This document shows positions 26,320 to 28,872 of a stretch of 28,993 nt of DNA, in pieces; position 1 is the stretch's first letter; every line of letters starts with the position of its first letter. The notes under the pieces were generated by a model. It saw only the letters and a list, made by a program, of their open reading frames with translations, searched no databases and had not been told where the DNA came from. Source of the stretch: a virus; IMG/VR virus record IMGVR_UViG_3300025674_000267, positions 1-28,993 of that record; one strand, given 5' to 3'. Position numbers and translations under genes: made by a program.

Positions 26320-26984
26320 TGAAAAGTAATACTATATTATTTGAGAGTGATCCACCACAAACTCCATATGCACCTGACTATAAGTATCTAATCTATGAAA
26401 CATATCATGGAGATGCTATAGACACTGCTGAGATTGCTAGGTTCTTTCTGCAGAAAGAAGATGAGATTCTTGCCCTACCAGAATCAGATTCTGGGGAGAC
26501 TGGACTCCCTAGGAAGAGCACTACAAACAGACACAGGAACTATAATGTCTTTCAATATCAAGATGAATGTTCTGAGTTACCTAAACTTCGTAGAGCGATC
26601 AAGAGGGCACACAAAGAGTATGGCAGGACATTGTTTGGTGACTTCTACAAGTATGACAAACGATTGTTCATTCGGTGTTGGGTGAATATAATGAGGAGGG
26701 GTCAGAAGATCATGCCTCACATTCATTCAACACATCCACACACATATCTTGGTGGACACTTTACTGTAGCATGTTATGACTCTGCTACAATCTATCTCAA
26801 CCCTATTAATCAATTGCATAATGGTGAGAGATATCAAAGTCATAATGTGGAAGGGAAACTAACTTTGTTTCCAAATAATGTTCCACATGAGACTACTAAA
26901 CACATGGATGACAGACCTAGGATTACGATTGCATTTGATCTAACTCCTATTGCTGACCCAGGATCTACTCTAGTCCCACTATAA
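26319..26984 (+). CDS. 2OG-Fe(II) oxygenase family protein
   Basis: This putative dioxygenase has WVNIMRRGQKIMPHIHSTHP (His134, His136), TYLGGHFTV, then GKLTLFPNNVPHE (His190) and Arg201 in RITIAFDLTP. It shares this whole layout with the oxygenase at 6118. ATG 26319 with GGGA upstream is preferred to the GTG at 26310. The substrate is unknown. Its TAA stop is part of the following late promoter. Confidence 0.85.
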   Translation: MKSNTILFESDPPQTPYAPDYKYLIYETYHGDAIDTAEIARFFLQKEDEILALPESDSGETGLPRKSTTNRHRNYNVFQYQDECSELPKLRRAIKRAHKEYGRTLFGDFYKYDKRLFIRCWVNIMRRGQKIMPHIHSTHPHTYLGGHFTVACYDSATIYLNPINQLHNGERYQSHNVEGKLTLFPNNVPHETTKHMDDRPRITIAFDLTPIADPGSTLVPL

Positions 26985-26987
26985 ATA
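26980..26987 (+). promoter_or_regulatory. T4-late-like promoter TATAAATA
   Basis: An exact late consensus overlapping the TAA of the oxygenase gene. By T4 spacing, transcription would begin near 26993, inside the AGGAG ribosome-binding site (26991-26995). Confidence 0.7.
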
Positions 26988-27003
26988 TTCAGGAGATTAC
27001 ATT

Positions 27004-27336
27004 ATGAACATGTGGCAAAAAATCAAGAGTATTCGAATCCCTGGATCTATCGTGGCAGCGTCTTTGACGGGAGCGATATTGGGGACTACTATGGTTTTGT
27101 TTACCGTATTACCTGTAGCACCACCAACCGTTCGTACATCGGAAGAAAGTATTTCTGGCAAAAACGAAAGCCTCCAAGTGTGGATAAAACTAAAAAGCGG
27201 AGAAGAGTTACTAGTGAAAGTAACTGGAAACTCTACTATGGAAGTTCTGATGAACTTAAGGCGGATCTTAAACTCTATGGACGGGACGCTTTTAGTAGAG
27301 AAATCCTTTCCCTCCACACCACCCCAGGCAGAGTAA
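27004..27336 (+). CDS. Possible overprinted membrane protein (110 aa)
   Basis: An ATG at 27004 has an ideal AGGAG 8 bases upstream, yet its frame overlaps the GIY-YIG gene almost completely. The product has a basic N-terminus, a hydrophobic segment (SIVAASLTGAILGTTMVLFT, near 15-34) and a soluble tail containing KLKSGEELLVKVTGNS. Either it is a real overprinted protein, or the strong start site is used in another way. Homology cannot be judged here. Confidence 0.4.
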   Translation: MNMWQKIKSIRIPGSIVAASLTGAILGTTMVLFTVLPVAPPTVRTSEESISGKNESLQVWIKLKSGEELLVKVTGNSTMEVLMNLRRILNSMDGTLLVEKSFPSTPPQAE

Positions 27337-27464
27337 ACTATGAAGAGACACGCCAGTTGTTCCTCAATGATGTCCTGACACAATCCTTGACGGATGGCAC
27401 CCCCGCGTACTACAATAGCAACATCTTAGGACGGTACTACCGCAAGGATTACTTTCCTAAATAA
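27012..27464 (+). CDS. GIY-YIG-like endonuclease
   Basis: A 150-residue protein matching a widespread phage endonuclease-like family: YYGFVYRITCSTTNRSYIGR at 26-45 holds the GIY (GFVY) and YIG motifs, SREILSLHTTPGR follows, and NYEETRQL near 109-116 supplies the candidate catalytic Glu. Family members are nicking or homing-type nucleases, or degrade host DNA (compare T4 endonuclease II). No ATG is available; a GTG at 27012 is the likely start, 16 bases from AGGAG, so expression may be weak. Its stop forms part of a late-promoter box. Confidence 0.75.
   Translation: MAKNQEYSNPWIYRGSVFDGSDIGDYYGFVYRITCSTTNRSYIGRKYFWQKRKPPSVDKTKKRRRVTSESNWKLYYGSSDELKADLKLYGRDAFSREILSLHTTPGRVNYEETRQLFLNDVLTQSLTDGTPAYYNSNILGRYYRKDYFPK
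27457..27464 (+). promoter_or_regulatory. T4-late-like promoter box CTAAATAA
   Basis: CTAAATAA includes the TAA stop of the endonuclease gene. Transcription from here would give the lysozyme gene a leader of about 74 bases that holds the hairpin structure at 27471-27520. Confidence 0.5.
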
Positions 27465-27542: not shown

Positions 27543-28148
27543 GTGCTTAAAAAATTACTGCCACTTGCTTTGGCAACTTCTGTTCCTGCTGCTTGTGCTT
27601 ATCCACTAATCAGTGAGATCAAAAATCCTCCTCCAGTTGATGTAACTGTCAATGTAGAGAAAGCAGTTCCTATCGAAGTGGTAGAAAAATCTTGGAAGTG
27701 TCCTGGATGTAATTACAATGAAAAATATGTCCTTGAGCAACTCCAAAAGAAAACAAAGATCTCTGATCGCAATGCCCTTGCAACGATCATGGGAAACATT
27801 AAATCAGAAAGCAACTTCCATCCCAACATCTGCGAGGGAGGTGCTAGAGTTCCTTACAATCGTTGCCTTCGCGGTGGCTACGGACTCATTCAGTGGACCT
27901 CTACGAACCGTTATCTGGGGTTAGGTAAGTTCGCTAAGAAGTATGGATACGACCCCTCCAGTCTTGAGGGACAAACTGCATACATGATTAACGAGTATAC
28001 TTTCCAGAGGTATCTTCCCGAATTTGAAGGTCCTGGTCAGACTGTATCTCAGTATATGGTCGGAGCATATTACTGGTTAGGATGGGGCATCAAGGGATAC
28101 CGTGAACACTATGCCTACCAGTACACAAAGAAACTGGTTTATTCTTGA
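27543..28148 (+). CDS. Secreted lysozyme-like peptidoglycan hydrolase
   Basis: From the GTG at 27543 (no Shine-Dalgarno) the protein has a signal peptide: Lys3-Lys4, a hydrophobic core LLPLALATSVPAA and an AxA-type cleavage site near ACA. The catalytic part matches phage tail-lysozyme (Phage_lysozyme2-like) domains: ALATIMGNIKSESNFHP with Glu89 the likely catalytic acid, then GYGLIQWTS near 112-120. A CPGC pair at 53-56 may bind zinc or form a disulfide. A Sec-exported hydrolase is unusual for a T4-like endolysin. The gene could act in lysis or at infection. Confidence 0.8.
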   Translation: MLKKLLPLALATSVPAACAYPLISEIKNPPPVDVTVNVEKAVPIEVVEKSWKCPGCNYNEKYVLEQLQKKTKISDRNALATIMGNIKSESNFHPNICEGGARVPYNRCLRGGYGLIQWTSTNRYLGLGKFAKKYGYDPSSLEGQTAYMINEYTFQRYLPEFEGPGQTVSQYMVGAYYWLGWGIKGYREHYAYQYTKKLVYS

Positions 28149-28213: not shown

Positions 28214-28576
28214 ATGATTTTGCGAGCACTCCAACAATTGATTAAACCTTTCACTGGCATCCCTGCCCCAGATTATCTAGAGGATGATGAATGGTTCGGT
28301 CCCGCTACTCTGAGTGAGAAGCAACTCTCACTTAAGGAAGCTCGTGCTCAAGCAGAAGCAGATCTTCAAATCTTATCTCACGAAGACGAACACCATGGTC
28401 CTGTGGAGGTTGACAACATCCATGAAGTCATGTACAATATCGCTACTGGCGGAGGTAGAACCACTACACAACTTGACCCTATGCCTGAGTTAGGTGGTGG
28501 ATCTGAAAACTTCCAAGAGGGTCCCAGTGGTCCTGGTGGATGGATGTCAGGCACAGGTATGCGTCAGTTTGACTGA
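28214..28576 (+). CDS. Unknown protein (120 aa)
   Basis: An acidic protein with a short amphipathic N-terminus (MILRALQQLIKPF), a helical Ala/Glu/Leu-rich centre (EKQLSLKEARAQAEADLQIL) and a Gly-rich tail ending GTGMRQFD. It has tandem early and late promoters. I recognise no family. The tail suggests disorder. Confidence 0.65.
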   Translation: MILRALQQLIKPFTGIPAPDYLEDDEWFGPATLSEKQLSLKEARAQAEADLQILSHEDEHHGPVEVDNIHEVMYNIATGGGRTTTQLDPMPELGGGSENFQEGPSGPGGWMSGTGMRQFD

Positions 28577-28588
28577 CGCTCTGCCTTT

Positions 28589-28675
28589 GGAGAGTTGGCC
28601 GAGTGGACGATGGCGCAGCACTGGAAATGCTGTAAGGGGGCAACTTCTTCGAGAGTTCGAATCTCTCACTCTCCG
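28589..28675 (+). tRNA. tRNA-Ser (GGA)
   Basis: The 7-pair acceptor stem GGAGAGT/ACTCTCC, the anticodon stem CAGCA/TGCTG with loop CTGGAAA giving anticodon GGA, and a long variable arm show a class II serine tRNA. The T-arm holds GTTCGAATC. The discriminator base is G (28675), as in bacterial serine tRNAs. CCA is not encoded; TTGACA of the next promoter follows directly. Confidence 0.93.
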
Positions 28676-28704
28676 TTGACAATCTGACCAGTCTTTGGTA
28701 TGAT
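28676..28704 (+). promoter_or_regulatory. Sigma-70-type promoter between tRNA genes (TTGACA-17-TATGAT)
   Basis: TTGACA (28676-28681) begins on the base after tRNA-Ser; TATGAT (28699-28704) follows after 17 bases. The predicted start near 28711 is close to the first base of tRNA-Arg (28713), so the tRNA pair may be made with almost no 5' leader. Confidence 0.65.
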
Positions 28705-28712
28705 TGTCCCAT

Positions 28713-28789
<77 letters not shown>

Positions 28790-28872
28790 GTCGGTATGGC
28801 GGAATTGGTAGACGCGCTGGGTTTAGGTTCCAGTGTCCTTGCGACGTGGAGGTTCAAGTCCTCTTACCGACA
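28790..28872 (+). tRNA. tRNA-Leu (TAG)
   Basis: The acceptor stem GTCGGTA/TACCGAC, the anticodon stem CTGGG/TCCAG with loop TTTAGGT (anticodon TAG), a long variable arm and discriminator A are those of a class II leucine tRNA. CCA is not encoded. It abuts tRNA-Arg with no spacer. Confidence 0.93.

Follow-up and report, generated by a model that had tools for sequence, protein, structure and literature searches.

A putative small membrane-protein gene overprinted on the SegE-type GIY-YIG endonuclease gene of T4-like cyanophages

Genes and signals at the locus

The window (the whole stretch of viral DNA analysed, 28,993 nucleotides of IMG/VR record IMGVR_UViG_3300025674_000267) carries the gene set of a T4-like cyanophage of the family Kyanoviridae (DNA polymerase B, nrdA, nrdB and a 2OG oxygenase), and the phages related to it at the locus described here belong to the same family. 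Positions 27012..27464 of the plus strand encode a protein of 150 amino acids that is assigned to the SegE GIY-YIG endonucleases by profile (PF19835, SegE_GIY-YIG, E = 6.1e-51; phrog_447, E = 9e-62) and by its GIY and YIG motifs, with residues G28, Y31, Y42, G44 and R52 invariant in the aligned relatives; cleavage and homing by this product are putative. The label given to SegE-type GIY-YIG nucleases by phrog_447 and by many cyanophage records is 'NAD synthetase', whereas the profile match is to GIY-YIG. The GTG at 27012..27014, the sole start codon of the nuclease frame, lies 8 nt within a second open reading frame (27004..27336, plus strand), which is in the +1 frame relative to the nuclease, begins with ATG at 27004 and encodes a predicted membrane protein of 110 amino acids. 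A Shine-Dalgarno sequence common to both ORFs, AGGAG (26991..26995, plus strand), is spaced 8 nt from the ATG and 16 nt from the GTG, and a T4-type late promoter box, TATAAATA, is read at 26980..26987 on the same strand. An earlier note on this DNA had described the two starts, one well and one poorly spaced from the AGGAG, the 110 codons with their hydrophobic helix and the late box, and each of these was recovered. An antisense ORF of 128 amino acids (26997-27383, minus strand) runs over the same DNA.

The neighbouring gene on the plus strand (27543..28148) has a Phage_lysozyme2 domain (PF18013, E = 6.3e-15). Its product has a hydrophobic N-terminus, belongs to phrog_512 and is a possible endolysin, although it goes elsewhere under the names 'DNA transfer protein' and 'tail lysozyme'; most records of its family are from Synechococcus phages (346 of 408, with 58 labelled 'Cyanophage' and 4 from Prochlorococcus phages). 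After it come an ORF at 28214-28576 (phrog_4639) and three tRNA genes within 28589-28872, tRNAs being the only matches in the Rfam search.

Annotation of the overlapping pair is erratic. S-WAM2, alone among the fetched records, annotates both ORFs (the membrane ORF being AOV61875.1), while S-CAM4 and ACG-2014e annotate the membrane ORF alone, S-RSM4 annotates only the nuclease, and S-T4 and ACG-2014h annotate neither. The 'sodium:alanine symporter' of S-SM2 (locus L266, 1457-1621) and of S-BM3 (locus L010, 2529-2840) is the overprinted membrane ORF, and in S-SM2 the nuclease frame is intact yet unannotated.

The predicted membrane protein

The product of the 27004 frame matches phrog_8965, a family with no assigned function (E = 3.9e-46), as do the products of all 69 relatives tested. 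It has one hydrophobic segment (residues 21-39 in the window's protein, KD 1.86), and AlphaFold predicts a helix over residues 14-35 (27043..27108, plus strand), taken as the transmembrane helix, and a C-terminal beta-beta-alpha-beta domain over residues 55-103 (27166..27312, plus strand); the mean pLDDT is modest at 62, with a block of 70-83 over residues 51-90 and lower values beyond. The N-terminal side of the hydrophobic segment is positively charged in 91-93% of members, which suggests an orientation with the N-terminus inside and the C-terminus outside. The GIY motif of the nuclease, YYGFVY, gives in the +1 reading TTMVLF, the core of the predicted transmembrane segment, so that the motif predisposes the overlapping frame to a membrane segment. 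The segment has a hydropathy of KD 1.84, however, against 0.93 expected under a synonymous null.

No relative with an assigned function was significant in family, PDB or fold searches. The best PDB fold matches (T7 Gp2, p56 and ribosomal proteins) do not exceed Z = 5.5, a level that a common arrangement would give, and were not used to assign a function.

Maintenance of the second reading frame

In the window's gene alone, an open 27004 frame has a probability of about 0.07-0.15 under synonymous shuffling; because the open frame of one sequence is not decisive, loci were gathered from relatives, yielding 233 distinct nuclease sequences from phage records and IMG/VR contigs. The overlap was measured over nuclease codons 10-96, and codons 110-148 in the same frame served as the tail. 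The earlier note had held that close relatives with stops throughout the 27004 frame would speak against overprinting; instead, the frame is without stops over codons 10-96 in 204 of the 233 sequences. Stops in this frame number 0.29 per 100 codons in the overlap against 5.0 per 100 in the nuclease tail, or 0.19 per sequence in the overlap against about 1.6-2 expected from synonymous shuffles, and the other forward frame has 11.1 stops per 100 codons and is open in none of the 233. The antisense ORF was considered as a gene and rejected: it behaves like a chance ORF, being open in just 58 of the 233 sequences and tolerating stop-creating changes.

Synonymous change in the nuclease gene was compared in 94 sister-like pairs, picked irrespective of stops and with no conditioning on an open frame. 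Across these pairs, whose greedy selection makes their phylogenetic independence less than strict, the nuclease fourfold divergence is 0.104 for the overlap against 0.241 for the tail, a ratio of 0.43 (CI 0.35-0.54). Over the transmembrane codons 10-34 it falls to 0.19 of that in the tail (0.12-0.27), and the constraint continues through the predicted C-terminal domain to about codon 99. Over codons 100-109, directly beyond the small ORF, the ratio is 0.90 (0.73-1.10), and a sliding scan places the step at about codon 100; these aligned sequences show that the fourfold constraint stops at the end of the small ORF.

The changes that the nuclease gene has accepted also bear the mark of a second frame. 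In the overlap, synonymous changes by which a +1 stop is gained or lost were observed 4 times against 24.3 expected; in the tail there were 24 against 26.0 expected. Changes at nuclease codon position 1 are skewed toward those that are synonymous when read in +1 (overlap 364:106, tail 100:56; Fisher P = 0.0015), and the synonymous changes that the nuclease has accepted are conservative when read in that second frame (z = 7.7). The aligned antisense frame likewise shows conservative changes (z = 7.5), yet has stops in most relatives. The 26 cyanophage sequences in which a stop interrupts the frame have an overall fourfold ratio of 1.07 (0.41-2.41; seven pairs only, the frame-intact and frame-broken groups having been set after the stops had been seen), with the transmembrane codons still constrained (0.34 and 0.18). 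In P-SSM4, P-RSM4 and a relative (loci L012, L263 and L126) the membrane ORF is truncated at 70 amino acids, and in the pooled frame-broken set, to which these lineages belong, the transmembrane codons are constrained and the remainder is relaxed. RNA structure over the overlap is not unusual (fold z-score +0.72).

Open frame, substitution bias and overlap-limited constraint show, to the extent that comparison of sequences can, that the 27004 frame is maintained by selection. True overprinting, one of two possibilities raised by the earlier note, is upheld by the frame being open in most relatives, by a synonymous constraint confined to the overlap and by the membership of the ORF in an existing family, phrog_8965.

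Two start codons behind one Shine-Dalgarno sequence

In 44 of the 61 near relatives (group A), 8 nt separate the membrane ATG from the nuclease start downstream of it. An SD-like motif is found ahead of the membrane ATG in 39 of the 61, with no clear SD in the other 22, and no SD was found at normal spacing from the nuclease start in 59 of the 61. The nuclease GTG consists of the last base of one membrane codon and the first two bases of a conserved Trp codon; where group A sequences have the Trp codon, the nuclease start is GTG in 51 of 52 and ATG in the remaining one, and the membrane codon before Trp is variable (ATG, CAG, GTG, AAG, TTG, ACG or AAA). Both starts are kept, because the GTG is conserved while the codon that contains its G varies. 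In the far relatives (group B), a usable nuclease start is present in all 79 sequences with the Trp codon near the membrane start (ATG in 64, GTG in 10 and TTG in 5). The alignments thus show that the membrane and nuclease starts are both conserved, a few bases apart. The earlier note had credited the membrane frame with the better start site, which holds for the membrane ORF; the nuclease GTG is nevertheless no artefact, since it persists in near relatives through seven forms of the overlapping codon.

The T4 late-promoter geometry is the basis for placing the start of late RNA, which would lie in or beside the Shine-Dalgarno sequence if the T4 spacing applies. A box of the form (A/C)TAAATA is present upstream in 51 of the 61 group A relatives, and in 39 of the 61 the late box ends 13-16 nt ahead of the membrane ATG. 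A late motif of cyanophages, NATAAATA, has been reported (PMC2984593). No hairpin that would hide the Shine-Dalgarno sequence was predicted over the start region in seven sequences (z from -0.57 to +1.92), and in five of the seven the region is less structured than shuffles; a switch of the I-TevI type is therefore not supported.

Alternative explanations

The explanation that we consider very probable is that a real gene, which encodes a protein and occupies 27004-27336, is overprinted on the SegE-type GIY-YIG nuclease gene in its +1 frame. An open frame with a hydrophobic stretch could instead follow from the amino acids and codon usage of the nuclease, with nothing made from the 27004 frame. 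Nuclease composition does lead to an expectation of just about 2 stops per sequence, under which one open frame is no great surprise (the probability of about 0.07-0.15 given above), and the GIY motif supplies part of the hydrophobicity, as the expected KD of 0.93 indicates; what composition leaves unexplained is the halving of fourfold divergence in the overlap only, the loss of constraint in frames that bear stops and the 4 stop-changing substitutions where 24.3 were expected, which makes a by-product very unlikely. An RNA or DNA element (a structure, a regulatory site or a nuclease-binding site) could also reduce synonymous divergence in the absence of a second protein, and the binding sites of homing endonuclease genes (HEGs) can overlap their own promoters, as does the I-TevI operator (PMC2988022). 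Such an element would have to account for a constraint that covers about 100 codons and ends with the ORF, for changes that shun +1 stops and, read in that frame, are conservative, for a fold z-score on the positive side of zero, and for frame-broken lineages with a ratio near 1 (in few pairs); we regard it as highly improbable. Still more remote is a -1 frameshift that would fuse the membrane frame to the nuclease, whose frame is -1 relative to that of the ATG: the window has a run of six A in CAA AAA ATC, but the run is lost in relatives (for example, CAA AGG ATA in S-H9-1), the membrane frame is without an X XXY YYZ heptamer, and the nuclease GTG is kept.

The other possibility raised by the earlier note was a start switch, in which early readthrough RNA, carrying the complete AGGAG, and late RNA, begun inside it, would favour different start codons, the two proteins being differently timed. 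The distance of 13-16 nt between late box and ATG in 39 of the 61 close relatives would fit such a switch, and T4 I-TevI, segB and mobE use promoter-dependent translation (PMC2988022). The start regions are, however, free of a predicted sequestering hairpin and in five of seven sequences less structured than shuffles, one Shine-Dalgarno sequence serves both starts, and the late transcription start is placed by an assumption carried over from T4, so that a switch seems unlikely.

Origin and distribution

The membrane ORF has a narrower distribution than the nuclease gene that contains it, and is absent from the SegE genes of Stenotrophomonas, Citrobacter and Flavobacterium phages and of cyanophage S-CAM7. 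A family search took in 15 phage records, of which 12 have phrog_8965-family matches solely at the nuclease gene, two (both non-cyanophage) have none, and one, from a Flavobacterium phage, matches weakly within a long ORF that is unrelated; in the window's own record the family matches at this locus alone. No genuine copy of the membrane ORF beyond the nuclease gene was found in the phage records searched. In a tree of the nuclease, several deep nodes of which are weakly supported, the early cyanophage branches (ACG-2014f, S-SM2, SynMITS9220M01, ACG-2014d and S-SCSM1) have mostly forms of 54-70 amino acids that end past the transmembrane segment, and most later clades have forms of 86-125 amino acids, with truncated forms among the later clades too (P-SSM4 and P-RSM4). 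The short forms in the early branches suggest that the membrane segment may have come first and the C-terminal domain later. The gene would have originated within the cyanophages, probably at first as a transmembrane segment encoded where the nuclease's own GIY motif lies, and would have been extended later.

Expression, possible role and comparison with known systems

Ribosomes placed by the AGGAG would mostly begin at ATG 27004, 8 nt away, the product of which would be a small single-pass inner-membrane protein with its N-terminus inside and its beta-beta-alpha-beta domain outside. A minority would begin at GTG 27012, at a distance of 16 nt; the nuclease would be their product and would thereby be kept scarce. 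The late promoter at 26980-26987 would drive both proteins. The membrane protein would most likely act in the late host envelope, in lysis or its timing, possibly in a holin-like or spanin-like manner; the late promoter, the small single-pass membrane protein and the adjoining lysozyme-domain gene found in part of the near group together suggest an envelope role at lysis. The Phage_lysozyme2 gene is directly 3' of the nuclease in 39 intact loci, mostly of near relatives, and is absent from this position in most loci; many isolates have a lysozyme gene within about 5 kb. As general evidence for a role in lysis, this adjacency is weakened by 144 intact loci with no lysozyme within the fetched stretch, on account of which we offer action in lysis as a guess and a rather doubtful one.

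A class III (T4 T-like) holin would have a single transmembrane segment, an N-in/C-out orientation and late expression; for the membrane protein, a transmembrane segment and an N-in/C-out charge bias are predicted and a late box lies upstream, which makes it a possible candidate. No Pfam match to a holin family was found and PHROGs gives phrog_8965 only, holins being too diverse for this absence to exclude the assignment. A spanin pair of the Rz/Rz1 type was considered and rejected, as the overlapping partner is the SegE nuclease and not a second spanin subunit.

Overprinted small membrane genes are of a known kind. Embedded lysis genes include E within D of phiX174 and L of MS2. In lambda, Rz1, a small membrane-associated lysis gene, is overprinted within Rz (PMC6139136). 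The present ORF is like all three in encoding a small membrane-associated protein out of frame in a larger phage gene; it is unlike them in that the larger gene encodes a nuclease, in that the embedded ORF starts slightly upstream with a common Shine-Dalgarno sequence, and in that its function in lysis is a guess. The nuclease gene itself, by its membership in PF19835, is like the T4-like SegE and other free-standing GIY-YIG HEGs. The HEGs of T4 typically have late promoters and translation starts that are weak or shared, and some overlap upstream ORFs by 11-24 bp or have embedded promoters (PMC2988022), whereas here most of another whole gene sits within the HEG. With I-TevI of T4, which has dual early and late expression, the locus shares a late promoter directly 5' of a phage GIY-YIG endonuclease, and differs in having no predicted structure that would sequester the ribosome-binding site and in having one Shine-Dalgarno sequence for two proteins rather than for one. 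A literature search of limited coverage found no description of an overprinted small membrane gene on a homing endonuclease, nor of the overlap between phrog_8965 and the nuclease.

Implications

A tentative scenario, in which we have limited confidence, is that a selfish homing endonuclease gave rise to a new cyanophage membrane gene: the +1 reading of the GIY motif would have yielded a peptide of 54-70 amino acids, to which a C-terminal domain was later added, and this protein, made from a common ribosome site and a late promoter, would serve the phage, for instance in lysis, and lock the nuclease in the genome. Since loss of the nuclease would also lose the membrane protein, the overlap would tie the selfish gene to the phage. 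Embedded promoters have been said to favour the retention of homing endonucleases in T4 (PMC2988022). Carriage of a second gene needed by the phage is a possible, testable answer to how a homing endonuclease stays fixed.

Among marine phages the T4-like cyanophages form a major group, in which annotators have called the membrane gene, the nuclease or neither, under wrong names. The overprinted product is a candidate for a late membrane protein in these phages, for which two cyanophage genome papers name no holin. If it is made, its gene would be a clear example, and one widely conserved, of de novo gene birth on a selfish element, in which the short forms of the early branches can be compared with the extended forms of later ones.
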